DNA of 35,000 nucleotides from Deltaproteobacteria bacterium (lineage in GTDB: Bacteria > Desulfobacterota > Dissulfuribacteria > Dissulfuribacterales > QOAL01): positions 1 to 35,000 of the forward strand of contig JALWNK010000048.1 in the NCBI GenBank assembly GCA_026995935.1. The letters are read 5' to 3'. Position numbers and translations under genes: made by a program. The notes beneath the pieces are model-generated. The model did no database searches and was not told where the DNA came from. It saw only the letters and a program-made list of their open reading frames with translations. This document shows, in pieces, positions 1,416 through 28,809 of the stretch (position 1 is its first letter; every line of letters begins with the position of its first letter).

Positions 1416-1889
1416 TTAGTGGTGATAAGGGCTTCCAGCATTTATTGATGCGGCCCTGTAGAGCTGTTCCGCCAGGATGAGGCGCGCCATTTCATGTGTA
1501 AAGGTCATCTTAGAAAGGCTCAAAATAAGATTAGCACGCCTTTTGATCTCCTCTGTAACTCCGTAAGCGCCACCAACGAGAAAACAGAAGGAATTTATCC
1601 CCATCTCCTGCCTCTTTTTTAAAAAACTGGCCAGTTCTTCAGACGACATCTCCCTTCCTGTCATATCAAGGACAACGAGAAAATCCCTGTTCCTGGAAAG
1701 GGCCTTTGCAAGATGCTGGGCCTCCTGTTTTGCTGCCTGATCCATCTCACGCCGCGAAAATCTTGCAGCCCTTGTTTCAACCACGTTTACCTGGTAGTAA
1801 TTTTTGAGTCTTTTAAGAAAAAATTCGATACCTTGTTTCAACCACTGTTCTCTTGTTTTACCAGGCCACAGGAGCTGGATTTTTGCCAT
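1416..1889 (-). CDS. rlmH: 23S rRNA (pseudouridine1915-N3)-methyltransferase
   Basis: RlmH is a SPOUT methyltransferase that methylates pseudouridine 1915 in helix 69 of 23S rRNA. At 157 residues it has the family's usual length. Visible marks are LVVLDMTGREMSSEELA (residues 71-87), the SAM-binding knot FLVGGAYGV (103-111), LSLSKMTFTHEMARLILAEQ (124-143) and the C-terminal SPYHH. I start it at ATG 1889; the frame is open further upstream to 2204 but that extension runs antisense to selA. Its ATG interlocks with the selA ATG within one CATG. Confidence 0.95.
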   Translation of the reverse strand: MAKIQLLWPGKTREQWLKQGIEFFLKRLKNYYQVNVVETRAARFSRREMDQAAKQEAQHLAKALSRNRDFLVVLDMTGREMSSEELASFLKKRQEMGINSFCFLVGGAYGVTEEIKRRANLILSLSKMTFTHEMARLILAEQLYRAASINAGSPYHH

Positions 1890-3321
1890 GACAGAACCCC
1901 AAAATAGAAACGAGCTTTTAAAAAGTATTCCCAAGACAGACAGGATACTTGAACGGATTCCAAAAAGCATCCCCCACACGCTAAAGGTGACCGTGTGCCG
2001 GGAGGTCCTTGACGGCCTTAGACGACAGATTCTAAAGGGACGTATTTCCTCTGCAGAGGCCCTGGGGCTTGAGCGCGTGGTGGGGCTTGTAAAGGATGCC
2101 CTTGAAAGAAGGCTGAGGCCGTCTCTTAGGCCGCTCATAAATGCTACGGGAGTTGTGGTGCACACGAACCTTGGCAGGTCCCTTCTTCCAGAAGACGTCT
2201 TCAAGCAGATATTCGAGGTGGCAGTAAACTATTCGAACCTGGAATATGATCTTGAAGCAGGAAGGCGTGGCTCCAGGTATTCCCATGTGGAGCCAATACT
2301 TTGTGAGCTTACGGGCGCAGAGTCCGCCCTTGTGGTAAACAACAATGCAGCGGCCGTGTTACTTACCCTGGAGACCCTTGCCAGGGGCAGAGAGGTAATT
2401 GTTTCAAGGGGAGAGCTGGTGGAGATTGGCGGATCCTTCAGGATACCAGACGTCATGGCAAGGAGCGGGGCAATCTTGCGTGAGGTTGGCGCAACCAACA
2501 GGACGCACCTTCGGGACTATGAAAACGCAATAAACGAGAATACGGCCCTCTTGATGAAGGTTCACCAGAGTAACTTTGCGGTTGTGGGCTTTACCTCCAA
2601 GGTCTCCATGGGCGAGCTCAAGGAGCTTGGAAGACGGCATAACATCCCCGTGATAGAAGACCTTGGAAGCGGAAACCTCGTGGACCTCACCCCCTATGGC
2701 TTTACACACGAGCCAACGGTCCAGGAGTCCCTAAAGGCCGGGGCAGACCTTGTAAGTTTTAGCGGGGATAAGATGCTTGGAGGGCCCCAGGCCGGAATCA
2801 TAGTGGGAAAGACGGAGCTTGTTGACAGGATAAAGAAAAACCCAATGAACAGGGCCGTAAGGATAGACAAGCTCACACTGGCTGGCCTTGAGGCAATCCT
2901 TTCCATTTACAGAAATCCCGAAGAGGCCCTAAAGAGGATTCCCACCCTGAAGATGCTCTCCATGCCTTATGAGGAGACGAAAAAGCGCGCCCAGCGCCTT
3001 GCAAGGCACCTGAGGAGGCAGGGATTGGAAGGGGTTGAGGTAGATTACATGGATACCATCTCAAGGGTTGGAGGCGGGGCCATGCCCCTTCAGGAGCTCA
3101 AATCCAGGGGCGTAGTCCTTGACCTTTCCAGGCTGTCGCCAAAAGGGGTGGATGCAGCGGCCCTTGAGCGCGAGCTTAGGGCAGGCGAGCCCCCTGTGAT
3201 TGCACGGATAGAGGATGAAAGGATACTTTTTGATACGAGAACCATTAGGGACAGGGAGCTTCCCGTCCTTTCTGAGTGTGTAAAGATGGCCCTAAAGCGT
3301 GCTGAAAGGGCATCTGCCTGA
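1888..3321 (+). CDS. selA: L-seryl-tRNA(Sec) selenium transferase
   Basis: SelA is a PLP enzyme that converts Ser-tRNA(Sec) to Sec-tRNA(Sec) using selenophosphate from SelD. The 477-residue protein is of family length. It has the INATGVVVHTNLGR segment near residue 85, ESALVVNNNAAAVLLTL, and the PLP-lysine motif SFSGDKMLGGPQAG, where the lysine is residue 295, the number of the E. coli catalytic lysine. The open frame extends upstream to 1804, but ATG 1888 matches the family N-terminus and avoids running antisense through rlmH. The start overlaps that of rlmH on the other strand. The next gene begins 2 nt after the stop. Confidence 0.96.
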   Translation: MTEPQNRNELLKSIPKTDRILERIPKSIPHTLKVTVCREVLDGLRRQILKGRISSAEALGLERVVGLVKDALERRLRPSLRPLINATGVVVHTNLGRSLLPEDVFKQIFEVAVNYSNLEYDLEAGRRGSRYSHVEPILCELTGAESALVVNNNAAAVLLTLETLARGREVIVSRGELVEIGGSFRIPDVMARSGAILREVGATNRTHLRDYENAINENTALLMKVHQSNFAVVGFTSKVSMGELKELGRRHNIPVIEDLGSGNLVDLTPYGFTHEPTVQESLKAGADLVSFSGDKMLGGPQAGIIVGKTELVDRIKKNPMNRAVRIDKLTLAGLEAILSIYRNPEEALKRIPTLKMLSMPYEETKKRAQRLARHLRRQGLEGVEVDYMDTISRVGGGAMPLQELKSRGVVLDLSRLSPKGVDAAALERELRAGEPPVIARIEDERILFDTRTIRDRELPVLSECVKMALKRAERASA

Positions 3322-11767: not shown

Positions 11768-13219
11768 CTAGTCCCCCTTCTCCTCCTCCTTGGTAAGGCG
11801 TTTTCTCATGGGACTGGTCTTTGGAAGCAATGCCAGTGCCCGCTTCCTGTGGTACTGTGCAGCTTGGGGTTTTCCGCTAAGAGCATAGAATCTATAAAAA
11901 TAGTAGTGGGCAAGGCCATCCTTTTTTACTCCAGCATAGCAGCGGCCAAGCTGAAAAAGAAAGGGGGTATTTTCTTCCCAGCGCGGAAGCAGCCTCTCAA
12001 AATAGTATAGGGCCTTTTGGGGCATGCCACCCTCCAGGTAGGATCTTCCGAGAAAATACATGGTGGTCACGTCCCTTGGATGGCCCTTCTCGTATTTTTT
12101 CAGAAGGGAGACGGCCTCCTTGTATTTCCCCATGTGAAAATAGGTTATGGCCTTGTCTCTTAAAAATACGTCCTTGTCTGGGAATAGGAAAAGGAGCTTG
12201 TCATAGGTTTCGATCGCCTTGTCGAATCTTCTGGCCTTGTCCAGGCTCAGGGCATATCCATAAAGGTATTCAAGCTTTTTGGGAGATTTTTTTAACAGAT
12301 GCTCGTATCTTGCCATAAGTTCTGCGGGATCTGTGGAGAGCACTTTGATCTTTATCTGTATCCTTTTGAGCCTGAAGGGATCTTCCTTGTGTTTCAGATA
12401 GCATGGGTGACTCTTCCACAGGTCTTCAAGGTAGGTGATCCTTTCTTCTGGAACCGGATGGGTAGAAAGATACTTGGGAATGTGCGGGGAGCCCAGCCAG
12501 TTATTCTTCATCATCTTTTCCAGGGTGGTCTTTAGCCCTCGGGGATCCCAGCCTGCCTTGCAAAGCCACTGGAAGGCCCTGCGGTCCGCCTCTTGTTCAT
12601 CGGCCCTGCTGTATTTAAGGGCAATGGCCTGGTTCATGGCCATGGAACCTGTAAGAATAGCGGAGCCAAGTTCCCCCCTGCCCAAAAAGAGCCCCGCTAT
12701 GGCCATTACAGCAGTCCCAATACTTACATACTTCATGTTGTCCATGCGATGGGCCACGTGGCGGCCCTGGACATGGCCAAATTCGTGGGCAAGAACGCAT
12801 GCAAGCTCGTTCTGGCTGCCGATTGCCTCAAGCAGGCCCGAATGGACAAAGACAAGTCCTCCTGGCATGGCAAAGGCGTTAAGGGCCGGATCCATTATGA
12901 CGAAAAAGCGGTACTTGAAGTACTTTCTGTCAACTACACTGAGAACGCTTTCGCCGGTCTGCCTGACAAAATTTTCTATTTCAGGATCATCCACCAGCCG
13001 GACCTGGGAAAGGACCTGTTTCAATAGCTTCTGCCCAAGCTCCCTTTCCTCTGAAATGGACATAAGGGCAAGGGCTGGCGTCAAGGTGGCGCTTAAAAAA
13101 AATATAAATGAAAGGCCAAGGGTTATGCCTGAAAAGAAACGGCTATCTTTTTTTCCTTTTGCCCTTGATCTTTTCTTTTTTGGCTCTTCTGCGTGCCCTT
13201 TTGCCTTTTTCAGCGACAA
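11768..13219 (-). CDS. M48-family metalloprotease with C-terminal TPRs (BepA-like)
   Basis: A periplasmic zinc protease of the BepA/YfgC type, which in E. coli degrades or assists misassembled outer-membrane proteins. The active site HEFGH lies in LAHEFGHVQGRH, and the third zinc ligand in RADEQEADRRAF. About 200 C-terminal residues form TPR-like helices. A hydrophobic signal segment (SGITLGLSFIFFLSATLTPALA) precedes MSISEERELGQ. The start is uncertain: the frame is open to 13399, overlapping the KptA-like gene. I give TTG 13219; a CTG at 13213 has an ideally spaced AGGAG; ATG 13276 or the signal-less ATG 13063 are other options. Confidence 0.88.
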   Translation of the reverse strand: MSLKKAKGHAEEPKKKRSRAKGKKDSRFFSGITLGLSFIFFLSATLTPALALMSISEERELGQKLLKQVLSQVRLVDDPEIENFVRQTGESVLSVVDRKYFKYRFFVIMDPALNAFAMPGGLVFVHSGLLEAIGSQNELACVLAHEFGHVQGRHVAHRMDNMKYVSIGTAVMAIAGLFLGRGELGSAILTGSMAMNQAIALKYSRADEQEADRRAFQWLCKAGWDPRGLKTTLEKMMKNNWLGSPHIPKYLSTHPVPEERITYLEDLWKSHPCYLKHKEDPFRLKRIQIKIKVLSTDPAELMARYEHLLKKSPKKLEYLYGYALSLDKARRFDKAIETYDKLLFLFPDKDVFLRDKAITYFHMGKYKEAVSLLKKYEKGHPRDVTTMYFLGRSYLEGGMPQKALYYFERLLPRWEENTPFLFQLGRCYAGVKKDGLAHYYFYRFYALSGKPQAAQYHRKRALALLPKTSPMRKRLTKEEEKGD

Positions 13220-13928
13220 ACTCCTGAAAATAGTCAAGGGATGGCATAAATGAGCCAGGAAGTATTGGAGTATCATCATCTCTTTCTTCAGAACCTGAAG
13301 GCATGACCTTCTTTTCCTTCTTGTTTTTCTCGGTTTTTTCCTGTTCCATTTCAAGGCTTTTTTTAGGGGCAGGTGGGAGCTTAAGCCATACGGGTTCAAG
13401 CCACTCCTTTGTTAAATATAATTCCGAACCTGCATAATGGAATATGTGCCCCTGGTTAAAGGCCCTCCTGGAAAGGACCTTAATAATCAAGGGCGTGTGA
13501 TGAAACCTTCTCCCAACAACCCTTGCTGCATCTCTTGAGGCACACAGACAAAGCCATGTCTTGCCCTGCGGGCCAATCCCCCTTTTTTCTACTGAGAAGT
13601 AGGCCTTTGGCCTTATGGGGCAAAAAAGAAAGGGGGGTGGCTCCTTGGGAGGGTAATCAAATATGCCTGGCCTTATGGATTCGGGCCTTGCACGCACCAG
13701 CCCTTCCTTCTCCCTGATCTCAAACTGGCCGGGTCGATATAGACAAAAATACTGTTTCAGGGAGCTTGGTGTCAAAAATGGCAACATTTTTTCCTCAGAA
13801 AGCACCTTGTGAAGATCCTTAAGCCTTATCCAGCCCTCTTTATCGCCCACAAGTAGAAACTCAGCGGGATTTTTCCCAAGAATATTAAGTAGAAGTTTAT
13901 TTAGCCTCTTTTGCTGTTTTTTGTCCAT
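13143..13928 (-). CDS. KptA/Tpt1-like RNA 2'-phosphotransferase homologue, probably inactive or divergent
   Basis: KptA/Tpt1 enzymes remove a 2'-phosphate from RNA using NAD+. This 261-residue protein follows the family plan: LNKLLLNILGKNPAEFLLVGDKEGW (residues 9-33), VRARPESIRPG (78-88), AARVVGRRFHHTPLIIKV (134-151) and FHYAGSELYLTKEWLEP (163-179). But the Arg-His of the usual LRH motif is Gly-Lys (18-19), and the RAxxGHS histidine is absent. Residues about 190-261 are a charged, Lys/Arg-rich tail, suggesting nucleic-acid contact. It sits 6 bp after the HDOD gene and overlaps the M48 start. The homology is reasonably supported; activity is doubtful. Confidence 0.65.
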   Translation of the reverse strand: MDKKQQKRLNKLLLNILGKNPAEFLLVGDKEGWIRLKDLHKVLSEEKMLPFLTPSSLKQYFCLYRPGQFEIREKEGLVRARPESIRPGIFDYPPKEPPPFLFCPIRPKAYFSVEKRGIGPQGKTWLCLCASRDAARVVGRRFHHTPLIIKVLSRRAFNQGHIFHYAGSELYLTKEWLEPVWLKLPPAPKKSLEMEQEKTEKNKKEKKVMPSGSEERDDDTPILPGSFMPSLDYFQEFVAEKGKRARRRAKKEKIKGKRKKR

Positions 13929-15127: not shown

Positions 15128-15397
15128 TTGACCGAAGAAGAAATTAGGCAGGAGCGAAGCAAGGCCAGGCAGTTGAGGAATACCAGGTGGTGGCGTAAAA
15201 AGTGCGCCTCTGGCAGGTGCTATTACTGTGGCAGGTTTGTTGGTCCGGCACATTTGACAATGGATCATCTGGTGCCCTTATCGAGGGGTGGGAAAAGTAT
15301 TCGGGCCAACCTTGTGCCTGCATGCAAGGAATGTAACAACAAGAAAAAGAATAATCTGGCATTTGAGTGGGACGATTTTGGGAATATCCAATTGTGA
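15128..15397 (+). CDS. Small HNH-endonuclease-domain protein
   Basis: An 89-residue protein that is essentially one HNH domain: C31-x2-C34, the DH pair D46-H47 in TMDHLVPLSRGG, N61 in ANLVPAC, and C66-x2-C69-N70. The two CxxC pairs would bind a structural zinc and the DH/N set a catalytic metal, so nuclease activity is plausible. The N-terminal 25 residues are basic with paired tryptophans (WW). The start is TTG at 15128 without a Shine-Dalgarno. The stop is 10 bp before the polysaccharide export gene, whose ribosome site overlaps the HNH stop, so they are probably co-transcribed. Its role in such an operon is unknown. Confidence 0.82.
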   Translation: MTEEEIRQERSKARQLRNTRWWRKKCASGRCYYCGRFVGPAHLTMDHLVPLSRGGKSIRANLVPACKECNNKKKNNLAFEWDDFGNIQL

Positions 15398-15407
15398 GGG
15401 ACCTTTT

Positions 15408-16013
15408 ATGAAACCGTTTCATATGAAAAACAATATTATTTTCTTTTGCGTTTCAGTAGTTTTTTTTATCTGCTTTGTTCAGGGAGTTGCCTTTGCAGAA
15501 GGGAAAAAAGTTTCCAGCAGTGTTGATAGAGATACCTATGTAATTGGCTGCGGAGATACACTTTCCATACAGGTATGGAGAGAGCCCAATTTGTCCGGGA
15601 ATTTTACCGTAAGGCCTGACGGCAAGATAACCTTTCCATTACTTAATGATATCAAGGCCGATGGACTCACCCCCTTGCAACTTAAAAAGGTCATCGAGAC
15701 GGGACTTGCAAAATATATTGCCACCCCGGTAGTTACTGTTGTTGTCTCATCAGCAAACAGCAAGAATATTTTTGTTCTTGGCAAGGTAAACAGCCCGGGG
15801 AAATATCCCCTGACCGGGCCGACCACTGTTTTACAGGCACTCGCAGAGGCAGGTGGACTTGCCGAATGGGCCAAGGGCGATGACATCGTTATACTTAGAA
15901 ACAAAAATGGCAAGCAGGTGAAAATAGAGTTTGACTACGACGACGTTTCAAGGGGTAAGCACCTTGAACAAAACATCTTTTTAAAGCCAGGTGATACTAT
16001 TGTGGTGCCTTAA
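15408..16013 (+). CDS. Polysaccharide export protein (Wza-like, SLBB domain)
   Basis: A 201-residue periplasmic/outer-membrane export component. The signal peptide spans residues 1-30 (cut after AFA); there is no lipobox cysteine, so it is not a typical Wza lipoprotein. A poly_export domain follows (YVIGCGDTLSIQVWREPNLS to VTVVVSSANS), then one SLBB domain beginning FVLGKVNSPGKYPL. It resembles the export protein of XrtA/EpsH-type loci. ATG 15408 has GAGGG 7 nt upstream; a second ATG at 15423 is possible. The next gene starts within its 3' end. Confidence 0.9.
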   Translation: MKPFHMKNNIIFFCVSVVFFICFVQGVAFAEGKKVSSSVDRDTYVIGCGDTLSIQVWREPNLSGNFTVRPDGKITFPLLNDIKADGLTPLQLKKVIETGLAKYIATPVVTVVVSSANSKNIFVLGKVNSPGKYPLTGPTTVLQALAEAGGLAEWAKGDDIVILRNKNGKQVKIEFDYDDVSRGKHLEQNIFLKPGDTIVVP

Positions 16014-17382
16014 AGACGCGAAAAATATATCCACTCGTTTTTTCTTATGTTTGACCGTGTTCTTGGTGTTTTCAGGCGTGGTTTCCACAGATGCGCTGGC
16101 TGACTGGATACCTTACGTCCGGGCAACGGTTGAGCAGCTTTACGACTCAAATATCTTCCTGGACCCGGATGGAGTTCATAGACCTGGTGCCAACAAGTCC
16201 GACTTTAGAACCAATATAACCCCTGGAATAGGTCTCAGAAACGAAACAGAGACTCAGACCTTCAGTGCTGAGTATGTCTTCAACTATTCATATTTTGTGA
16301 ATAACAGTGATCAGAATTATGCAGGGCATACGGGAAATTTTGATTTTGAAAGGCACCTGAGCCAGCATCTTCGCTGGTATGTTCATGATAGTATCTCGGT
16401 AAGCGAAGAACCCAGAACCGATACCTATGACTACGTGACAGTGAACTATGGCAGGCGAAGAAACCTTACAAATGACGGGGAAACCGGTATTGAGTATGCC
16501 TTTGGGCCAGAAAACACAGTTGAGTTTCACTATTCCGACAGCAGGCTCGATTATTTAAGTGATGGAGACGCAAGAGACGAGCTGGAGGCAAGGCTTGGGT
16601 CTGATGATTCGGTCACCTATGGTCCAGGCATTGAATTTAGGTATTGGTTCACATTGCACCACGGCATTGATCTGGCCTACGAATGGGAGCGAACGGACTA
16701 CAAAATAAGAGCGTCTGAGAGGCGGGATCACCTGGATCTCGGCTATACCTACAGGTTCTCTCCACATACCTCAGTACGCTGCGATTTCATCCTTGATTAT
16801 GTAGATTCAAAGGATCCATTACTCTTTGACTACAAGATTTATCAGGCAACAGTTGGTTTTTCAAAGGTCTTCAGCCCTGCCTGGAGTCTAGACGTACATG
16901 GCGGTTTTTACTACAGGCCTTCCAGTGATGTTCCTGATATAATTGAATCCTCTGATAACGAGGGTTTTTCTGGTGGTTTTGACCTCACTTACACCCAGGA
17001 GGTCTGGCACGTCACACTCAGTGGAGAGGCAGGGGCGCGCATCGAATATGGTGATTACAACAACAGGGGTTACACACCATACAGGACCATTTCCCTTGAT
17101 TTTGGATATGACGTCACCTCCAGGCTTAGAAGCTCTATCACCGCCTCATACGATTATGAAAAATCACCAGATACCTTGGTGGCAGTGGTGACAGGTGAAA
17201 ACAGAAGGGAGACTTACGACATTACTGCCGGTTTGGAATACGAAATTTTGCCTTGGCTCCATTCAAGGGCAGAGTATGGTTACTCGGAAGAGTCAGCAAC
17301 AGATCTATCTGGTCATTTGCCAGCCGGTTACAAGGATCACAGGTTCCTCATATCACTAACCGCCAATTACGATTGGTTATAG
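16000..17382 (+). CDS. Outer-membrane beta-barrel protein of the EPS locus
   Basis: About 460 residues with a signal peptide (FFLCLTVFLVFSGVVSTDALA) and then alternating aromatic/polar strands typical of an outer-membrane barrel, ending in the aromatic pattern ANYDWL. It fits the beta-barrel found in XrtA/PEP-CTERM exopolysaccharide loci (TIGR03016-like), presumed to be the outer-membrane exit channel. I place the start at TTG 16000, preceded by AGGTGA at 5 nt; GTG 15991 is an alternative. Either overlaps the export gene end by 14-23 nt. Confidence 0.8.
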   Translation: MWCLKDAKNISTRFFLCLTVFLVFSGVVSTDALADWIPYVRATVEQLYDSNIFLDPDGVHRPGANKSDFRTNITPGIGLRNETETQTFSAEYVFNYSYFVNNSDQNYAGHTGNFDFERHLSQHLRWYVHDSISVSEEPRTDTYDYVTVNYGRRRNLTNDGETGIEYAFGPENTVEFHYSDSRLDYLSDGDARDELEARLGSDDSVTYGPGIEFRYWFTLHHGIDLAYEWERTDYKIRASERRDHLDLGYTYRFSPHTSVRCDFILDYVDSKDPLLFDYKIYQATVGFSKVFSPAWSLDVHGGFYYRPSSDVPDIIESSDNEGFSGGFDLTYTQEVWHVTLSGEAGARIEYGDYNNRGYTPYRTISLDFGYDVTSRLRSSITASYDYEKSPDTLVAVVTGENRRETYDITAGLEYEILPWLHSRAEYGYSEESATDLSGHLPAGYKDHRFLISLTANYDWL

Positions 17383-17396
17383 GGTAAGATATTTGT

Positions 17397-18983
17397 ATGA
17401 CTGAGACAAAACAGAATTCAATCCAGCAGACCATTTACCCCTATATTCAACTAATCCTAAGAAGAAAGTGGATAATTTTATTTGGAGCCATTCCCATTTT
17501 AATTGCTGGCCTAATTTATTGTTTGACTGCACCACTTACTTACAAGGCAAGTGCGCTCATTGTTGTTGTTCCCCAAAAAGTGCCAGAGTCTTATGTTCGT
17601 ACAACGGTAACAGGACGAAATGATGAACGAATACGAGGGATTGTTCAGCAGATTACCAGTCGGACTTCCTTAGAAAAGCTTATTAAACAATATAATCTTT
17701 ATCCAGAAATGCGCCAAAAATATCCCATGGAAATTGTCGTGGAGCATATGAAAAAAGATTTGGAGGTAGAAAGTCCAAGAAATGAGCGTCAGACTACTTT
17801 TCATGTAAGTTTTCAGGGAAGGAATCCCAGGCTAGTTGCAAAAGTAACCAATGCGTTTGCAAATCTGTTCGTTGAACAGAATCTCAAGTTAAGAGAAAGT
17901 CAATCTACCAATACGGCAAAGTTCTTAGAGGAGGAGCTTGGTAAAATTTATGTGAAATTAAAGAAGAGAGAGGAAACACTCAAAAAATATAAAATGGAGC
18001 ATATGGGCGAGCTTCCCGAGCAGCGCCAAAGTAATCTTACAACATTAGCAGCCCTGCAGAGGCAGCTTCAAGATATACAGGAAAATATCAGGCGCGCAGA
18101 GGATCGCAAACTTCTGATAAGACAACAGCTTTCGGATCAGAGGACTTCCTTAAATCTAGTGCAGTCTCAGCAAGGAGCACAGTCTCGTCACGGAGCCACC
18201 TCAAATTTATCACTTCCGGAACTTAAAGAGAGATTACGTATTCTCCTTTCTCGTTATACAGAAAACCATCCTGATGTAATCGCCTTGAAAAAGGCCATTG
18301 CCAAACAAGAAAAGTTGTTGCAGATTCATAAAGAAAATGCTGCGGAATCTTCAGCTCCAGCTCCTAGTCTGACAGGAAATCCAGCACTTGATGCACTTAA
18401 GCTACAGCTTAGGAGTACGGAATTTGAGATAAGACAACTAAAAGAAGAAAAAAGAAACGTTGAAAAACAGATTGCCCTTTATCAAAAGAGAATAGAAAAT
18501 ACCCCAAAAAGGGAGCAGGAATTAATAGATCTTACAAGGGATTATGAAAATCTTAAACAGACCTATGATGACCTTCTGCAGAAAAAGCTTGAGGCCGAAC
18601 AGGCTGCCGCTCTGGAAAGGCGTCAGCAGGGAGAACAATTTAGGATAGTGGACCCGGCCAGGGTTCCAGAACGTCCTGTTAAACCCGATCTAAAGAAATT
18701 GATACCTATTATTCTGGTGGTTGCCTTCGGTTTCAGTGTTGGGCTGGCCTTTATAATAGATCTGTTGAGCAACAAGTATTATGATCCGGACGATGTTAAG
18801 GCGGACTTAGGCCTTGAAATCCTCGCATGTATTCCTTTGTTGCTAAGTCCGGAGGAGATTAGGAGGAGGCGTCTTAAAAATTTGGCTCTTTCCTTTGCAG
18901 CCGTTTGTGGATATGCAGTTGTCCTTGGCCTTTCCGTCTTGTTGTTTTTAAAGGGTCCTGGATCCTTCTCAGGCCTCATCTGA
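17397..18983 (+). CDS. Polysaccharide chain-length determinant (Wzz/GumC family)
   Basis: A 528-residue inner-membrane polysaccharide co-polymerase. It has a Wzz domain with a first membrane helix (about 25-43), a long periplasmic coiled-coil region (about 170-420), the family PxxP-type segment before a second helix (about 436-457; VPERPVKPDLKK), and a third helix near 496-518. It lacks a cytoplasmic kinase domain; that function is supplied by the separate tyrosine kinase two genes on. It resembles the XrtA-system chain-length protein (TIGR03007). The base composition is somewhat more AT-rich than the genes at 1-14 kb. Confidence 0.9.
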   Translation: MTETKQNSIQQTIYPYIQLILRRKWIILFGAIPILIAGLIYCLTAPLTYKASALIVVVPQKVPESYVRTTVTGRNDERIRGIVQQITSRTSLEKLIKQYNLYPEMRQKYPMEIVVEHMKKDLEVESPRNERQTTFHVSFQGRNPRLVAKVTNAFANLFVEQNLKLRESQSTNTAKFLEEELGKIYVKLKKREETLKKYKMEHMGELPEQRQSNLTTLAALQRQLQDIQENIRRAEDRKLLIRQQLSDQRTSLNLVQSQQGAQSRHGATSNLSLPELKERLRILLSRYTENHPDVIALKKAIAKQEKLLQIHKENAAESSAPAPSLTGNPALDALKLQLRSTEFEIRQLKEEKRNVEKQIALYQKRIENTPKREQELIDLTRDYENLKQTYDDLLQKKLEAEQAAALERRQQGEQFRIVDPARVPERPVKPDLKKLIPIILVVAFGFSVGLAFIIDLLSNKYYDPDDVKADLGLEILACIPLLLSPEEIRRRRLKNLALSFAAVCGYAVVLGLSVLLFLKGPGSFSGLI

Positions 18984-18987
18984 TATA

Positions 18988-19971
18988 ATGTATTTTGATT
19001 TTTATGGTCTAAAATATGAGCCTTTTTCCCTGTCTCCAGATCCGCGTTTTCTATATCTTGCAGCATCTCACAAGGAGGCATTGGCACATCTTCGGTACGG
19101 ACTCATTCAGCAAAAGGGTTTTGTGGTAATAACTGGAGAGGTGGGAACCGGTAAGACAACTCTTATCTACTCCTTGCTTTCCCAAATGCCACAACAGGTG
19201 ATAAGTGCCTTCATTTCGAATCCAGTTCTTACCCGAAATGAATTTTTTTATCTGCTTGCCCATAAATATGGCCTGGGTGAGATAGAGAACAAGGGTGATT
19301 TTTTGGTAAAATTCACTCGTTTTTTGGAAGAGGCCCATAAAAAAAAGAAAAACGTCGTCCTAATAATTGATGAGGCCCACTGTCTGGAAAAAGAAATACT
19401 TGAAGAGATAAGGCTCCTTTCAAATCTCGAGACCCCCCATTCAAAATTGATAAACATCATTTTAACAGGCCAGCCAGAATTTAATGAAAAATTAAATGTT
19501 CCGGATCTTAGGGCCTTGAGACAGAGGATTACCTTAAGATATGAGTTGGAGCCACTGGATTTGAAGGAAACAAATGCCTATGTTCAACTGCGTATGGCCA
19601 AGGCGGGTGCCAAGGACGCAGGAATTTTTACTCATGCTGCAATTGACAGTATATATGAGTATTCCGGGGGTATACCTCGTATAATTAATCTACTTTGTGA
19701 CCATGCCCTTTTAACCGGTTTTGTTAAGGAAGCCAAAATCATAGACGATAAAATTATTGGAGAATGTGCAAAAGAGACCGGTTGTTTAAAAGGGGATAGA
19801 AGGGGTAAACAAACTCGTACACTCAGCGGGAAGACAGACCACAAAAAACATATTTTAATGTGGTTCCTTATTGTTTTATTGTTGTCTGCCTCTGCTGCCT
19901 TTGTGTATGTTTTTTTCTCAAAACTTGAGCAAGGCCGGGAAATTTTAGAGAAGATATATCAATATTTCTAG
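18988..19971 (+). CDS. ExeA/GspA-like AAA ATPase, XrtA-locus type
   Basis: A 327-residue ATPase beginning MYFDFYGLKYEPFSLSPDPR, the hallmark of the ExeA-like family. Walker A is GEVGTGKTT (50-58) and Walker B VVLIIDEAH (122-130); GGIPRIINLLCDHAL is sensor 2. A membrane helix near 289-310 leaves a short C-terminal tail, whereas many ExeA proteins carry a peptidoglycan-binding domain there. It fits the XrtA-associated ATPase (TIGR03015). It starts 4 bp after the chain-length gene, so the two are coupled. Its exact role is not established. Confidence 0.88.
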   Translation: MYFDFYGLKYEPFSLSPDPRFLYLAASHKEALAHLRYGLIQQKGFVVITGEVGTGKTTLIYSLLSQMPQQVISAFISNPVLTRNEFFYLLAHKYGLGEIENKGDFLVKFTRFLEEAHKKKKNVVLIIDEAHCLEKEILEEIRLLSNLETPHSKLINIILTGQPEFNEKLNVPDLRALRQRITLRYELEPLDLKETNAYVQLRMAKAGAKDAGIFTHAAIDSIYEYSGGIPRIINLLCDHALLTGFVKEAKIIDDKIIGECAKETGCLKGDRRGKQTRTLSGKTDHKKHILMWFLIVLLLSASAAFVYVFFSKLEQGREILEKIYQYF

Positions 19972-19980
19972 GTGGTTAAA

Positions 19981-20841
19981 ATGGGTAAACTTTACAAGGC
20001 CCTTGAAAAGGCAAACATTTCTGAATCAAAAGAGTGGCCTTCTCATGATGAATCCGACGAGGCTGTATCAAACAGAAATACACATAGAGATATTAGTGCA
20101 GACACAAAGGCAGCTTCACAAGATAAACTAATTGCAGAAAAAGATCATATAAGCAGTCCAGTGGATTTCAGGGTTGTAGTGTATCATAATCCCGAGTCGC
20201 TGGCAGCAGAGCACTTTAAGGTCCTTCGTGGCTCTATAATGCATTCGTCTGAGAGGAAAATTAAGTCTGTTCTGATTACATCTGCCCTGGAGCAGGAAGG
20301 CAAAACCATGGTTTCGTGCAATTTGGCAGTAAGTATTGCACAAAGCATAGATCCATACGTTTTGTTGATAGATGGCGATGTCAGAAGGCCAAGTGTGCAA
20401 AAGATGCTTGGTTTAAGGAAGGCAAAGGGGCTTACAGACTATCTTCTTTCTGGTAAACCCCTTTCGGAATATTTAATGAAGGGCATCCTTGATAAAATGA
20501 CTGTTTTGCAGGCCGGTTCTACGGTTCGAAATCCAGCGGAACTCATGACTTCGGAAAAGATGCAACATCTGATAGAAGAGGCTCGTGACAGATATGCCGA
20601 TCGCTTGATAGTCATTGATTCGCCTCCTGTAAATCTAGCCGCAGAGACACTGGTTTTGGCAAGGCAGGTGGACGCGGTGGTGATGGTGGTTCGTTATGGG
20701 GTTTCTGACAAAAATGCCGTCGATGAGGCTGTTAACAAGCTTGGAAGAGACAAGATACTTGGTTTTGTTTTTAATGGATTTGAAATAACTCCTAGAAAAT
20801 ATACATACTATAAGAAAAAATATTATAAAAGTGCCTATTGA
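19981..20841 (+). CDS. Polysaccharide tyrosine autokinase (CpsD/BY-kinase)
   Basis: A 286-residue cytoplasmic bacterial tyrosine kinase that phosphorylates its own C-terminal tyrosines and regulates the chain-length protein. Walker A is SALEQEGKT (101-109), Walker A' LLIDGDVRRP (128-137), Walker B LIVIDSPP. The tail YTYYKKKYYKSAY holds six tyrosines. The N-terminal 60 residues are a variable hydrophilic linker starting MGKLYKALEKA, as in XrtA-associated kinases (TIGR03018). I start at ATG 19981 with AGGTGG at 5 nt; a GTG at 19972 is also in frame. Confidence 0.92.
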   Translation: MGKLYKALEKANISESKEWPSHDESDEAVSNRNTHRDISADTKAASQDKLIAEKDHISSPVDFRVVVYHNPESLAAEHFKVLRGSIMHSSERKIKSVLITSALEQEGKTMVSCNLAVSIAQSIDPYVLLIDGDVRRPSVQKMLGLRKAKGLTDYLLSGKPLSEYLMKGILDKMTVLQAGSTVRNPAELMTSEKMQHLIEEARDRYADRLIVIDSPPVNLAAETLVLARQVDAVVMVVRYGVSDKNAVDEAVNKLGRDKILGFVFNGFEITPRKYTYYKKKYYKSAY

Positions 20842-20856
20842 GAAAAACCTGCCTTT

Positions 20857-22236
20857 ATGCTCCGCATTTTTGGTAAAAAATACCCCTTAAGAAAACTCAT
20901 TCTCTTTCTGGGAGAGGGCTTCTTCCTTTTTCTGACCCTTTATGTTGTTTATTTTAACCAATCCCCGTCTGCTTTTGAGAATCATCTTCACGCAATATTA
21001 AGGATATCCTTTGCTGTTGTTATATGCTTACTCTCCTTGTATTACTTTGATCTGTATACATTCAGATATGGCTATAGCTACCTGGAAATGTCTACCAGGC
21101 TTTTTCAGGCAGTAGGAAGTGCCTGTATTTTTCTTGGTTTCTTTTATTTCCTTTTTCCAGGTTTTATGCCTGGTAGGGGTGTGTTTCTAAAAGAGATTAT
21201 TGCTTTCATAGTTTTTAGCAGTATATGGAGATATTTTTATATCTGGTTTTTAAAAAGAAATATTGGGTCTAAACCCGTCTTGGTAGTTGGTCAAGGTGCA
21301 GCAGTCAAGCAACTTTTAGATGAGATTAAAGAAAATAGCGATTGTGGGTATTTGATAAAGGGCATCATAGTCCCAAACAACGAAAAAAAGTTACAAGATA
21401 CAGATGTCCCCATCTGGCATGGCTTTGATAAGATAATCAAAAAGGCAAAGGAGCTTGATGTCGATGAGATAATAGTGGCCATGGAGGAAAAACGTGGCCT
21501 TTTACCCATAAATGAGTTGCTTGCATGCAAAATGCAAGGCCTTTCAATCATTGACGGAGAGACATTCATAGAAGAAATATCCGGGAAGCTCGCCATTGAT
21601 AGTATAAATCCCAGTTGGCTGATATTTAAGGAAGGATTCCAAAAGGACCGGCTCACCATGATAGGCAAGCAGCTTATAGGAAGCTTTTTTGCCCTTATCG
21701 GCCTGATCGTTTCCTTCCCAGTGTCATTGCTGGTGGCCATTTTGATAAAGCTTGAGTCAGAAGGCCCTGTTTTTTTTAGACAGACCAGGGTAGGGCGTGA
21801 TGGCAAGGTATTCACTCTGGTAAAGTTCAGGTCAATGCGCTCTGATGCAGAAAAAGATGGCGCCAAATGGGCAAGGCCCGATGATGACAGGGTTACCAAG
21901 ATAGGAAGAATCATACGCAAGCTGCGTATTGATGAGATTCCTCAGATGTGGAACGTTCTAAAGGGGGACATGAACTTTGTTGGACCAAGGCCAGAGCGCC
22001 CAGAGTTCGTAGAAGACCTCAGGAGAAAGATAAAGTACTACGATCAGCGTCACACAGTAAAACCTGGAATAACCGGTTGGGCCCAGATAAACTATCCTTA
22101 TGGCGCCTCCATTGAGGATGCCAAAAAAAAGCTTGAATATGACCTATACTACATAAAACATATGTCCGTTCTGCTGGATCTTTATATAATTTTAAAGACT
22201 GTTAAGACCATCCTTTTCAGGGAAGGATCACGGTAA
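20857..22236 (+). CDS. Undecaprenyl-phosphate sugar transferase (priming, XrtA-type)
   Basis: A 459-residue polyisoprenyl-phosphate sugar-1-phosphate transferase that starts the repeat unit on the lipid carrier. Several N-terminal membrane helices (to about residue 130) precede a CoA-binding-like domain (KPVLVVGQGAAVKQLL), then a membrane re-entry helix near 270-297 and the catalytic domain with GPVFFRQTRVGRDGK, KFRSM, RKLRIDEIPQMWNVLKGDM, FVGPRPERPEF and KPGITGWAQINY. The architecture fits the glycosyltransferase of XrtA/PEP-CTERM loci (TIGR03013). The sugar is not predictable. Confidence 0.92.
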   Translation: MLRIFGKKYPLRKLILFLGEGFFLFLTLYVVYFNQSPSAFENHLHAILRISFAVVICLLSLYYFDLYTFRYGYSYLEMSTRLFQAVGSACIFLGFFYFLFPGFMPGRGVFLKEIIAFIVFSSIWRYFYIWFLKRNIGSKPVLVVGQGAAVKQLLDEIKENSDCGYLIKGIIVPNNEKKLQDTDVPIWHGFDKIIKKAKELDVDEIIVAMEEKRGLLPINELLACKMQGLSIIDGETFIEEISGKLAIDSINPSWLIFKEGFQKDRLTMIGKQLIGSFFALIGLIVSFPVSLLVAILIKLESEGPVFFRQTRVGRDGKVFTLVKFRSMRSDAEKDGAKWARPDDDRVTKIGRIIRKLRIDEIPQMWNVLKGDMNFVGPRPERPEFVEDLRRKIKYYDQRHTVKPGITGWAQINYPYGASIEDAKKKLEYDLYYIKHMSVLLDLYIILKTVKTILFREGSR

Positions 22237-22247
22237 AGGGAGGTATC

Positions 22248-24086
22248 ATGTGCGGTATTGTTGGTTACGTTGGTCACAGGCGCATTCTTCCAGTCCTTTT
22301 AGATGGCCTCAGGAGACTTGAATACAGGGGATATGACTCGGCAGGGGTGGCGTGGCCAGAAAATGGTGATCTTAAAAGGGTGAGGGCCAAGGGAAAGCTC
22401 AATATCCTTGAGGAGGCCCTTGAAGATTTCAGGAGTACAAGGAGCAGCATCGGCCTTGGACACACCCGCTGGGCAACACACGGAAGGCCAACAGAAGAAA
22501 ATGCCCATCCACATGCAGACTGCACTGGCAGGCTTGTTGTGGTGCATAACGGCATCATAGAAAACTACTTTGCCCTCAGGGAACAGCTAAAGAAAGAGGG
22601 CCATGTCTTTAAATCCGATACCGATACGGAGGTCCTCGCCCATCTCATAGAAAAATATCTCGAGGATGACCTTGTGGAGGCGGTTTTAAAGGCCCTAAAG
22701 GATGTCGAAGGGGCCTATGCCCTTGGTGTCCTGTGGGCCGATAAGCCAGATACCCTGGTTGCCGCAAGAAAACAGAGTCCATTGGTCCTGGGTATAGCTG
22801 AAAATGAGTGCTTTATGGCCTCTGACATCCCTGCACTCCTTCCCTACACCAAAAGGGTGGTTTTTCTTGACGATGGAGAGCTTGCCGTACTCTCAAGTGG
22901 TGGCATAAAGGTCCTTTCCATAAGCAGCGGAGATGAAATAGAAAAAGAGGTCCAGGAAATAAAATGGGATGCGGCCATGGCTGAAAAGGCCGGGTACAAG
23001 CACTTTATGCTCAAGGAGATATACGAGCAGCCCCAGGCCATCCTCAACACATTTCGGGGACGCATGCTTCCGGATACTGGCGAGGTGGAGCTTCCGGAAA
23101 TGGAGCTTTCCGATGAGGTGATAAGAGGGCTGAACAAGGTGGTTCTTCTTGCCTGCGGAACCTCGTGGCACGCAGGCCTTGTGGGCAAGTACTGGATAGA
23201 GAAGTGGGCAAGGCTTCCGGTGGAGGTGGAGCTTGCCTCTGAGTTCAGGTACAGGGGCCTTCTTCTTGATGAAAAAAGCCTGACCATTCCCATCTCGCAG
23301 TCTGGAGAGACGGCGGACACCCTGGCAGGTCTAAGGATTGCAAAGGAGCTTGGCTCCCATATAGTCTCCATATGTAATGTGGTTGGCAGCACCATAACGC
23401 GGGAGTCAGATGGCACCGTCTATACCCATGCTGGCCCAGAAATTGGGGTTGCCTCCACAAAGGCCTTTACAAGCCAGCTTACTGCCCTGTATCTGCTAGC
23501 CCTCTACATGGCAGAGAAGAGAGGAACCCTCAACGAACAGGAACGCTCAAGGCTTTTAAAGGCGCTCCTTGATGTACCAAAGATTATTGAGGACAGGCTT
23601 GGTGAGTGGCACGAAGACGCTTCAGCCCTTGCAGATGAATTTTACACCTACAGTGATTTTCTCTATCTTGGAAGGCATCTTCAGTTTCCCATTGCCCTTG
23701 AAGGGGCCCTCAAGCTTAAGGAGATATCCTATATCCATGCGGAAGGTTATGCGGCAGGTGAGATGAAGCATGGCCCCATTGCGCTTATTGACAGAAACAT
23801 GCCTGTGGTGGCCCTGGTGCCAAAGGATCACGTGTATGAAAAGATGGTAAGCAACGTTGAAGAGGTAAAATCCAGGCGAGGGATAGTGATTTCCGTAGGA
23901 ATTGATGGCGATGAAGGGCTTAACAGGTTAAGTAGTGTCATGATACGTGTGCCTGAGGTGGAAGCCGAGATCAATCCCTTCATATTTACCATTCCGCTTC
24001 AGCTTGTGGCCTATGAAATTGCCCTTGCCCGCGGATGTGATGTTGATCAGCCAAGGAACCTGGCAAAGAGTGTTACCGTGGAATAG
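22248..24086 (+). CDS. glmS: Glutamine-fructose-6-phosphate aminotransferase (isomerising)
   Basis: GlmS makes glucosamine-6-phosphate, the entry to UDP-GlcNAc for peptidoglycan, lipid A and the exopolysaccharide of this operon. The 612-residue protein has the N-terminal glutaminase with catalytic Cys2 (MCGIVGYVG), GHTRWATHGRPTEENAHPH and VVVHNGIIENY, then two SIS domains (ACGTSWHAGL, SQSGETADTL, IALEGALKLKEISYIHAEGY) and the C-terminal QPRNLAKSVTVE. GGGAGGT lies just before the ATG. No glmS ribozyme was seen in the 11-bp gap. Confidence 0.98.
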   Translation: MCGIVGYVGHRRILPVLLDGLRRLEYRGYDSAGVAWPENGDLKRVRAKGKLNILEEALEDFRSTRSSIGLGHTRWATHGRPTEENAHPHADCTGRLVVVHNGIIENYFALREQLKKEGHVFKSDTDTEVLAHLIEKYLEDDLVEAVLKALKDVEGAYALGVLWADKPDTLVAARKQSPLVLGIAENECFMASDIPALLPYTKRVVFLDDGELAVLSSGGIKVLSISSGDEIEKEVQEIKWDAAMAEKAGYKHFMLKEIYEQPQAILNTFRGRMLPDTGEVELPEMELSDEVIRGLNKVVLLACGTSWHAGLVGKYWIEKWARLPVEVELASEFRYRGLLLDEKSLTIPISQSGETADTLAGLRIAKELGSHIVSICNVVGSTITRESDGTVYTHAGPEIGVASTKAFTSQLTALYLLALYMAEKRGTLNEQERSRLLKALLDVPKIIEDRLGEWHEDASALADEFYTYSDFLYLGRHLQFPIALEGALKLKEISYIHAEGYAAGEMKHGPIALIDRNMPVVALVPKDHVYEKMVSNVEEVKSRRGIVISVGIDGDEGLNRLSSVMIRVPEVEAEINPFIFTIPLQLVAYEIALARGCDVDQPRNLAKSVTVE

Positions 24087-24107
24087 ATACTTGGAAGGAA
24101 CATTTTG

Positions 24108-25130
24108 ATGAGAAAGGAATTTAATAAGATACTTGTTACCGGTGCGGCAGGCTTTATTGGCTTTCATCTTTCAAAAAGGCTTCTTGACGAAGGCTGCCAG
24201 GTCGTAGGTCTTGATATAGTAAACGACTATTACGACCCTGCAATAAAGGAGGCAAGGCTCGAAATACTTAAACCCCACGAGGGGTTCAAGTTTGTAAAGA
24301 TAGACCTTGCGGACAAGGACTCCATGGAAAGGCTTTTCAAGGAGGAGAAGTTTGATGCAGTGGTGAATCTTGCAGCCCAGGCCGGGGTCAGATATTCACT
24401 GGTCAATCCCCAGTCCTATGTGGACTCAAACCTTGTTGGGTTTGTAAACATCCTGGAAGGATGCAGGCACAATGATGTGAAACACCTGGTCTTTGCCTCA
24501 TCGAGTTCCGTTTACGGCTCAAACACAAAGATGCCCTTTAGCGTGCACGACAACGTGGACCACCCGGTCTCCCTTTATGCGGCAAGCAAAAAGTCAAATG
24601 AGCTCATGGCCCACGCATATGCACACCTTTTTTCCATTCCATGCACGGGCCTTCGTTTTTTTACCGTGTATGGTCCATGGGGAAGGCCGGACATGGCGCT
24701 TTTCCTGTTTACAAAGGCAATCCTTGAAGACAGGCCAATAGATGTCTTCAACTACGGGAAGATGCAGCGGGACTTCACATACATAGACGATATAGTAGAG
24801 GGCGTGGTGAGAGTTATTGAAAGGCCAGCACAACCCAATCCAGATTGGAATGGTGACAGCCCGGACCCTGGCTCCAGTTACGCCCCTTACAAGATCTACA
24901 ATATTGGGAACAATCAGCCGGTTGAACTCATGCATTTCATAGAGGTCATCGAAGATACCCTTGGGAAAAAGGCAGAAAAGAACCTTCTGCCACTTCAGCC
25001 TGGGGATGTGCCTGCCACCTATGCCAACATAGACGATCTTGTTCGGGATACGGGGTTTAAGCCAGCCACACCTCTTGAGGTCGGCATACCAAAATTCATC
25101 AAGTGGTACAGGGATTATTTCAGGGTTTGA
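24108..25130 (+). CDS. NAD-dependent epimerase, likely UDP-glucuronate 4-epimerase
   Basis: A 340-residue extended short-chain dehydrogenase. The NAD site is [12 protein letters not shown] near the N-terminus; the catalytic Ser-Tyr-Lys set is in [16 protein letters not shown] and [13 protein letters not shown]. The [18 protein letters not shown] segment and the [17 protein letters not shown] motif are typical of UDP-glucuronate 4-epimerases, which make UDP-galacturonate; this substrate is inferred. ATG 24108 has AAGGAA at 7 nt; a TTG at 24105 also exists. It lies 21 bp after glmS and is the last gene of the operon, which suggests a galacturonate-containing polymer. Confidence 0.85.
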
Positions 25131-27246: not shown

Positions 27247-28296
27247 CTAGTGCCAGTCCTGGACTATTTGTACTCTGCCGGGGCCCTCTTTGACGTTTCC
27301 AATTATTGATGCGTGTTCGTGCCCCAGCTTATGGAGCCTATTAATAAGATTTTCCCCCTCAGATTCCTTTATGCTGATTAGAAGGCCCCCTGAGGTCTGG
27401 GCGTCGAACAACACGGTTACGAGTTCGTCATCCAGGCCTTTGTCAATCTCAAAGGATTTTTTGCAAAATTCCTTGTTGGAATAATCCCCTTCAGGAATAA
27501 AGCCCATTTTTAGAAATTCCATGGTCTCAGGAAGAACTGGCACCTTCCTGGCAGCTATATTTATGGTGCATTTGCTGGCAATGGCCATTTCCAGGGCATG
27601 TCCTGCCAGGCCAAAGCCGGTTATGTCTGTTGCCCCAGAGGCGCCAAGCTCCACCATGAGCCTTGATGCATCTCTGTTTAAGGTCTTCATTACATGGATG
27701 AGCAGATATTTGGCCTCTCCCTTTAACATACCCGCCTTGAGGGCAGTGGACAGTATGCCCGTTCCTATAGGCTTGGTCAGGACAAGCACGTCTCCCGGCC
27801 TTGCCCCGCTGTTGGAGATAAATTTTTTTGGATGAACCAGCCCTGTAACAGAAAGTCCGTATTTGGGTTCCGGATCTTCAACGCTGTGTCCACCCACTAG
27901 AAGGGCCTCTGCCTCATGGATTTTCTCAATCCCTCCTTTCAAGATGGCCTTTAAAACATCCTTTGGTTGCTCCTTTATGGGAAAGCAAAGGATGTTCATG
28001 GCAGTAACGGGTGTTGCTCCAACTGCATAGATGTCGCTAAGGGAGTTTGCCGCTGCAATCTGGCCAAATTCATAGGGGTCATCCACAATGGGAGTGAAGA
28101 AATCCAGGCTCTGCACAATGGCCAGCTCGTCTGACAGGCGGTAAATGCCTGCATCTGCTGCAGCCTCCATTCCCATCAAAAGGTTGGGGTGGGAGGAAAG
28201 GGGAAGATCGCAAAGGATGTCTGCCAGGTCTCCCGGACCTATTTTTGCCGCTCAACCCGCGGCCTTGGAAAGAGAGGTTAATCTTTTCTTGTCCAT
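27247..28296 (-). CDS. selD: Selenide, water dikinase, a UGA-encoded selenoprotein
   Basis: SelD makes selenophosphate from selenide and ATP, the selenium donor for SelA. The 349-residue product begins MDKKRLTSLSKAAG, then an in-frame TGA (28254-28252) as codon 15, then AAKIGPGDLADIL. The UGA sits exactly where other SelDs carry the catalytic Cys or Sec, and essential Lys18 follows, so it encodes selenocysteine. A caller treating UGA as stop would start at the ATG at 28179 and lose 39 residues, including the active site. The rest is canonical (ADAGIYRLSDELAIVQSLDFFTP, GGHSVEDPEPKYGL, GASGATDITGFGLAGHALEMA). The ATG at 28296 lies 15 bp after the HAD gene stop. Confidence 0.96.
28226..28254 (-). 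promoter_or_regulatory. Putative bacterial SECIS element in selD
   Basis: Just downstream of the UGA (28254-28252) the mRNA can form AGGUC/GACCU (28240-28236 with 28230-28226) around the loop CGGGA. The apical loop starts 17 nt after the UGA and has G as its second base, consistent with known bacterial SECIS hairpins bound by SelB. Folding was done by eye. Confidence 0.65.
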
Positions 28297-28311: not shown

Positions 28312-28809
28312 CTATTTCCTGAGTGTGGCAATCATCCTGTTTTTCTTAAGGAAGATGTCTAGGGCGTCACAGATATTCAAAAAGACCGCTTGACTTGCAG
28401 AAAGGGCCTCCATGGATGCCCCTTCTGGGCCTATGACGGAAATTCCAAGGGCCGCCTCCCTGAGAAGCAGTGCATCGTTGCATCCGTTTCCTATGGCAGC
28501 AGTGCGTTCTCTACCTAGTTTTTCCAGAAAATTCAGCTTTTGGATGTCCCCCCTTCCTGAATCCAGTTTGTGCACCTCAATGGATGTGTCTTTCTTCAGG
28601 GAGTCGAGGATTTCATCGGCTGTCTGATGGGTATCAGCAGTTAGGAGATAAACGTTTAGGATTTCGGACAGCTTCTTTAATCGTTCTTCCACGCCCTCTA
28701 TGAACTTTCCGTCAACTGTTAGGGTGCCATTTAGATCAAGTACCAGGTTGGAAAGGTCATAAAAAACACCGCATGGCAGGTCAATTTCCAGATTTTTCTT
28801 GACTATCAT
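28312..28809 (-). CDS. HAD-family protein, soluble P-type-ATPase-like
   Basis: A 165-residue cytoplasmic HAD fold with motif I LDLNGTLT (nucleophile D25), motif II LLTADT, a conserved lysine region and motif IV GNGCNDALLL. It is close to the catalytic domain of P-type ATPases without membrane segments (COG4087 type). Position +2 after the nucleophile, Asp in most HAD phosphatases, is Asn27, so the phosphatase rate may be low. AGGTGA stands before the ATG. It lies 15 bp after YkvA and 15 bp before selD, implying one transcript. The substrate is unknown. Confidence 0.85.
   Translation of the reverse strand: MIVKKNLEIDLPCGVFYDLSNLVLDLNGTLTVDGKFIEGVEERLKKLSEILNVYLLTADTHQTADEILDSLKKDTSIEVHKLDSGRGDIQKLNFLEKLGRERTAAIGNGCNDALLLREAALGISVIGPEGASMEALSASQAVFLNICDALDIFLKKNRMIATLRK

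Follow-up and report, generated by a model that had tools for sequence, protein, structure and literature searches.

Organization of the selD locus

The window analysed here, a stretch of 35,000 nucleotides from a Deltaproteobacteria bacterium (contig JALWNK010000048.1, positions 1 to 35,000), carries a selD gene on its minus strand, with a gene for an HAD-like protein directly upstream, and also contains selA (Table 1). Elsewhere in the window, positions 15288-25130 on the plus strand hold an XrtA/PEP-CTERM-type exopolysaccharide cluster that comprises genes for an export protein, a chain-length determinant, an ATPase, a tyrosine kinase, a glycosyltransferase, glmS and an epimerase. A minus-strand frame at 13143-13928 shows weak similarity to RNA 2′-phosphotransferase, well below cut-offs.

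Table 1. Coordinates of selD and associated features in the window.
Feature	Position	Strand	Basis
selA, L-seryl-tRNA(Sec) selenium transferase	1804..3321	+	TIGR00474, 617.5 bits (cut-off 267.9)
selD, selenide, water dikinase, selenocysteine form, 349 aa	27247..28296	-	Matches to TIGR00476, 2yye and 3u0o
Putative bSECIS apical hairpin, AGGUC-CGGGA-GACCU	28226..28240	-	Pairing in relatives, geometry
In-frame TGA at codon 15 (catalytic position), proposed to encode Sec	28252..28254	-	TGA/Cys column; opposite Cys of 3u0o
ATG start codon of selD	28294..28296	-	Conserved in 8/9 same-genus loci
Gene for a HAD-like protein of 165 aa, immediately upstream of selD	28312..28809	-	Weak HAD and P-type ATPase domain matches

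With TGA read as selenocysteine (U), the frame from 28296 to 27247 gives 349 residues, contains one TGA only and shows no other damage. The ORF finder, run with translation table 11, returned only a shorter call of 310 aa (27247-28179) that begins with TTG and has its first ATG at 28176-28174. In the ninth same-genus locus, which does not share the ATG at 28296, the gene begins two codons further upstream.

The frame matches the SelD family model TIGR00476 with 374 bits (cut-off 125), over positions 1-309 of the 311 in the model and residues 5 to 312 of the protein. Because this match includes the part upstream of the TGA, the full-length frame lies far beyond chance. AIRS and AIRS_C domains were identified by Pfam, and the solved SelD structures from Aquifex (2yye, E 2e-68) and E. 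coli (3u0o, E 3.9e-63) align with the same frame. At the active site, GUAAK in our sequence stands opposite GCAAK in 2yye and GCGCK in 3u0o, and G-U-A-A-K thus shows the arrangement that marks the SelD family, Cys or Sec followed by Lys at +3. By these matches the protein is a bacterial SelD, which would form selenophosphate from selenide and ATP.

A preceding analysis made without database searches (the sequence-only reading) had extended the frame through a single TGA at 28254-28252 to an ATG at 28296, and reading TGA as U bears this out. It had placed U at the catalytic position with Lys three residues on, in agreement with our alignment to the Cys-type solved proteins, and had stated that the shorter call lacks the active site; the extension upstream of 28179 does carry the catalytic residue. 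One detail requires correction: position 28179, described there as an apparent ATG, begins a TTG codon, and the ATG is at 28176. The gene model should accordingly run for 349 aa from 28296, as a product of about 310 aa beginning at 28179 or 28176 would lose the active site.

Conservation of the in-frame TGA

SelD loci were drawn from whole genomes of relatives and from genome contigs, and the codon aligned with the TGA was scored in 95 loci. It was TGA in 83 and a Cys codon (TGC or TGT) in the remaining 12; no other codon was seen, and a Trp codon never occurred. A few of these loci are duplicates of one another, and 74 Sec-type and 12 Cys-type genes remained once identical stretches had been removed. 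Upstream of the TGA, in codons 2-14, differences among same-genus sequences numbered 25, 15 and 61 at codon positions 1, 2 and 3, which by its distribution is change of the coding type. The locus thus displays a feature by which bacterial selenoproteins are recognized, an in-frame TGA within conserved coding sequence that has Cys homologues.

Selenocysteine machinery and additional candidate genes

The genome (79 contigs totalling 2.59 Mb, with an estimated completeness of 100%) was searched for the remaining components of selenocysteine insertion. The sequence-only reading had proposed looking for selB and selC, whose absence would have counted against it, and both were found. A tRNA-Sec gene (selC) with anticodon TCA is located on contig C7 (74.4 bits), and contig C23 carries selB as an open frame of 662 aa that scores above cut-off. 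Together with selA, these genes complete the selA, selB and selC set that is likewise expected of a selenoprotein-producing bacterium. A second strong tRNA-Sec match (contig C47, 50 bits) was rejected, as it is a tRNA-Ser.

At least three more genes in the genome have TGA at known Sec positions. Two encode formate dehydrogenase alpha subunits (FdhA), with the internal TGA in the contexts CARV-U-HAPS (contig C62) and QARI-U-HSTT (contig C67), and one encodes FlpD (FTGG-U-HLGECHYQSGN, contig C62). Only one SelD above the family cut-off is present genome-wide, and it is the one encoded at 27247-28296.

Among 60 relatives searched, selA was above cut-off in 53 and selB in 54. Four relatives (G026, G025, G031 and G048) have selA and selB and no SelD above the family cut-off. 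These absences are probably assembly gaps; G026 is rated 99% complete. Three others (G021, G052 and G055) each give multiple SelD matches that are full-length or long, and in G021 one match has no internal stop and one has a TGA.

A putative bSECIS hairpin downstream of the TGA

The candidate hairpin listed in Table 1, whose sequence is shared by relatives, consists of a 5-bp stem and a 5-nt loop that begins 16 nt past the UGA, and the loop, CGGGA, has GG from its second position. The bSECIS consensus model calls for a stem of at least 4 bp, a loop with GG starting at its first or second position, and an energy limit of -7.5 kcal/mol (PMC13188914). The selD hairpin resembles this model in its 5-nt loop, GG placement, stem length and 16-nt spacing between UGA and loop; it differs in its energy, -5.8 kcal/mol for the hairpin alone, and the spacing is at the lower bound.

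Comparative evidence favors the structure. Across 27 relatives at the order and phylum level, pairing is preserved in 96.3% of cells. Two of the five pairs have changed at both positions, U-A being replaced by C-G in one and G-C by A-U in the other. The control for covariation, in which letters were shuffled among the related sequences, is a generous one, and weight is therefore placed on the two double-changed pairs and on the disappearance of the hairpin from Cys-type genes. All five pairs are kept in half of the 74 Sec-type genes and in none of the 12 Cys-type genes, a contrast confounded by relatedness. Some distant Sec-type genes do not keep the hairpin.

Single-sequence folding of the 54 nt after the TGA was no better than that of shuffled sequences (z 0.37); the hairpin was not the main fold, with a pairing probability of about 0.02 in this isolated segment. 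Support for a SECIS element thus comes from the comparative hairpin and not from folding of the single sequence. An Rfam search at the TGA gave no match to a SECIS family and only chance matches. We regard the hairpin as a likely, as opposed to an established, bSECIS core, and it may serve in recoding of the UGA.

Alternative readings of the TGA

An open frame by itself does not identify the residue inserted at UGA, and the codon could in principle be decoded as Trp or Cys through a reassigned code or readthrough. We consider this very unlikely, since tRNA-Sec, selA and selB are all present, the homologues have Cys and never Trp, and the other TGA-bearing frames that were found carry the codon at known Sec positions. 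Even less probable is that the true product is the short form, initiated at TTG 28179 or ATG 28176, with the TGA serving as the real stop of a tiny upstream frame. A 310-aa table 11 ORF does exist, but the N-terminal extension is covered by the TIGR00476 match and aligns with the solved structures, is under coding constraint and bears the catalytic residue; in addition, 12 homologues have Cys in place of the TGA, and the genome contains the Sec machinery.

The TGA is one base away from both TGC and TGT, and the sequence-only reading had itself raised the prospect of an error at 28252-28254. That the codon arose through such an error, or through recent nonsense mutation of a SelD of the Cys type, is hardly credible given that all eight same-genus relatives and nearly the whole order share the TGA and that the frame is otherwise undamaged; by this conservation the explanation is already refuted. 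Sequencing error in particular is excluded in practice, because the identical TGA occurs in separate assemblies at 90, 80, 77, 76 and 75% protein identity.

Considering the frame, its membership of the SelD family, the conserved column that holds either TGA or Cys, the complete complement of selABC genes and the sole SelD above cut-off, all observed directly in the sequence, we estimate a probability of roughly 97% that the gene encodes a bacterial SelD with Sec as its catalytic residue, decoded from UGA at codon 15 by way of SelB, selC and SelA. According to this model, the selD mRNA would present UGA at codon 15, and SelB would bind a short hairpin immediately past the UGA and deliver Sec-tRNA(Sec), the selC product charged by SelA, allowing translation to run on to the normal stop. 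SelD would convert selenide and ATP to selenophosphate, from which SelA would make the same Sec-tRNA that SelD itself requires. Sec insertion at this codon is what the comparisons predict, and the sequence-only reading, which took selenocysteine decoding as shown to operate, was right insofar as the sequence argues strongly for it, a step short of demonstration. Its corollary, a SelD reliant on its own product, holds provided that the TGA is read as Sec, because the genome has no second SelD above cut-off.

A conserved HAD-like neighbor of selD

The HAD-like gene adjoins selD in 23 same-order loci, with 62-90% identity among the proteins. In 58 other loci, most of them more distant, it was not found beside selD. 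The two genes probably form one operon. A functional pairing of their products within the order, for example with the HAD-like protein as a phosphatase protecting or recycling selenophosphate, is a speculative and rather improbable idea; if true, the operon would add a step to selenium metabolism. This conserved neighbor is the sole fresh lead to come from the locus.

Comparison with known SelD proteins

The closest named relatives are metagenome-assembled genomes of uncultured Deltaproteobacteria, at no more than 90% identity. Sec-type SelD and its mis-annotation have already been published (PMC1794560, PMC4561486): Zhang et al. (2006) counted 38 Sec-type SelD proteins and listed SelD for most selenoprotein-rich Deltaproteobacteria (PMC1794560), and Mariotti et al. 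belong to the earlier literature on this form (PMC4561486). Each claim of a Sec-type SelD made here is therefore right and none is new, the trait being well known in related bacteria and on record as a common one. The finding contributes one more uncultured deltaproteobacterium with good support for Sec use and leaves knowledge of selenium metabolism unchanged.

SelD of E. coli (3u0o) shares the family and the active-site layout with our protein and differs in having Cys instead of Sec. The Sec-type proteins of Desulfovibrio, Geobacter and Syntrophobacter (PMC1794560) and SelD of Aquifex aeolicus (2yye, 2zod) belong to the same family, and the likeness extends to the positions of U and Lys, the one in-frame UGA close to the N terminus, the presence of selABC and a host of the deltaproteobacterial kind, with nothing of substance to set the present SelD apart from them.
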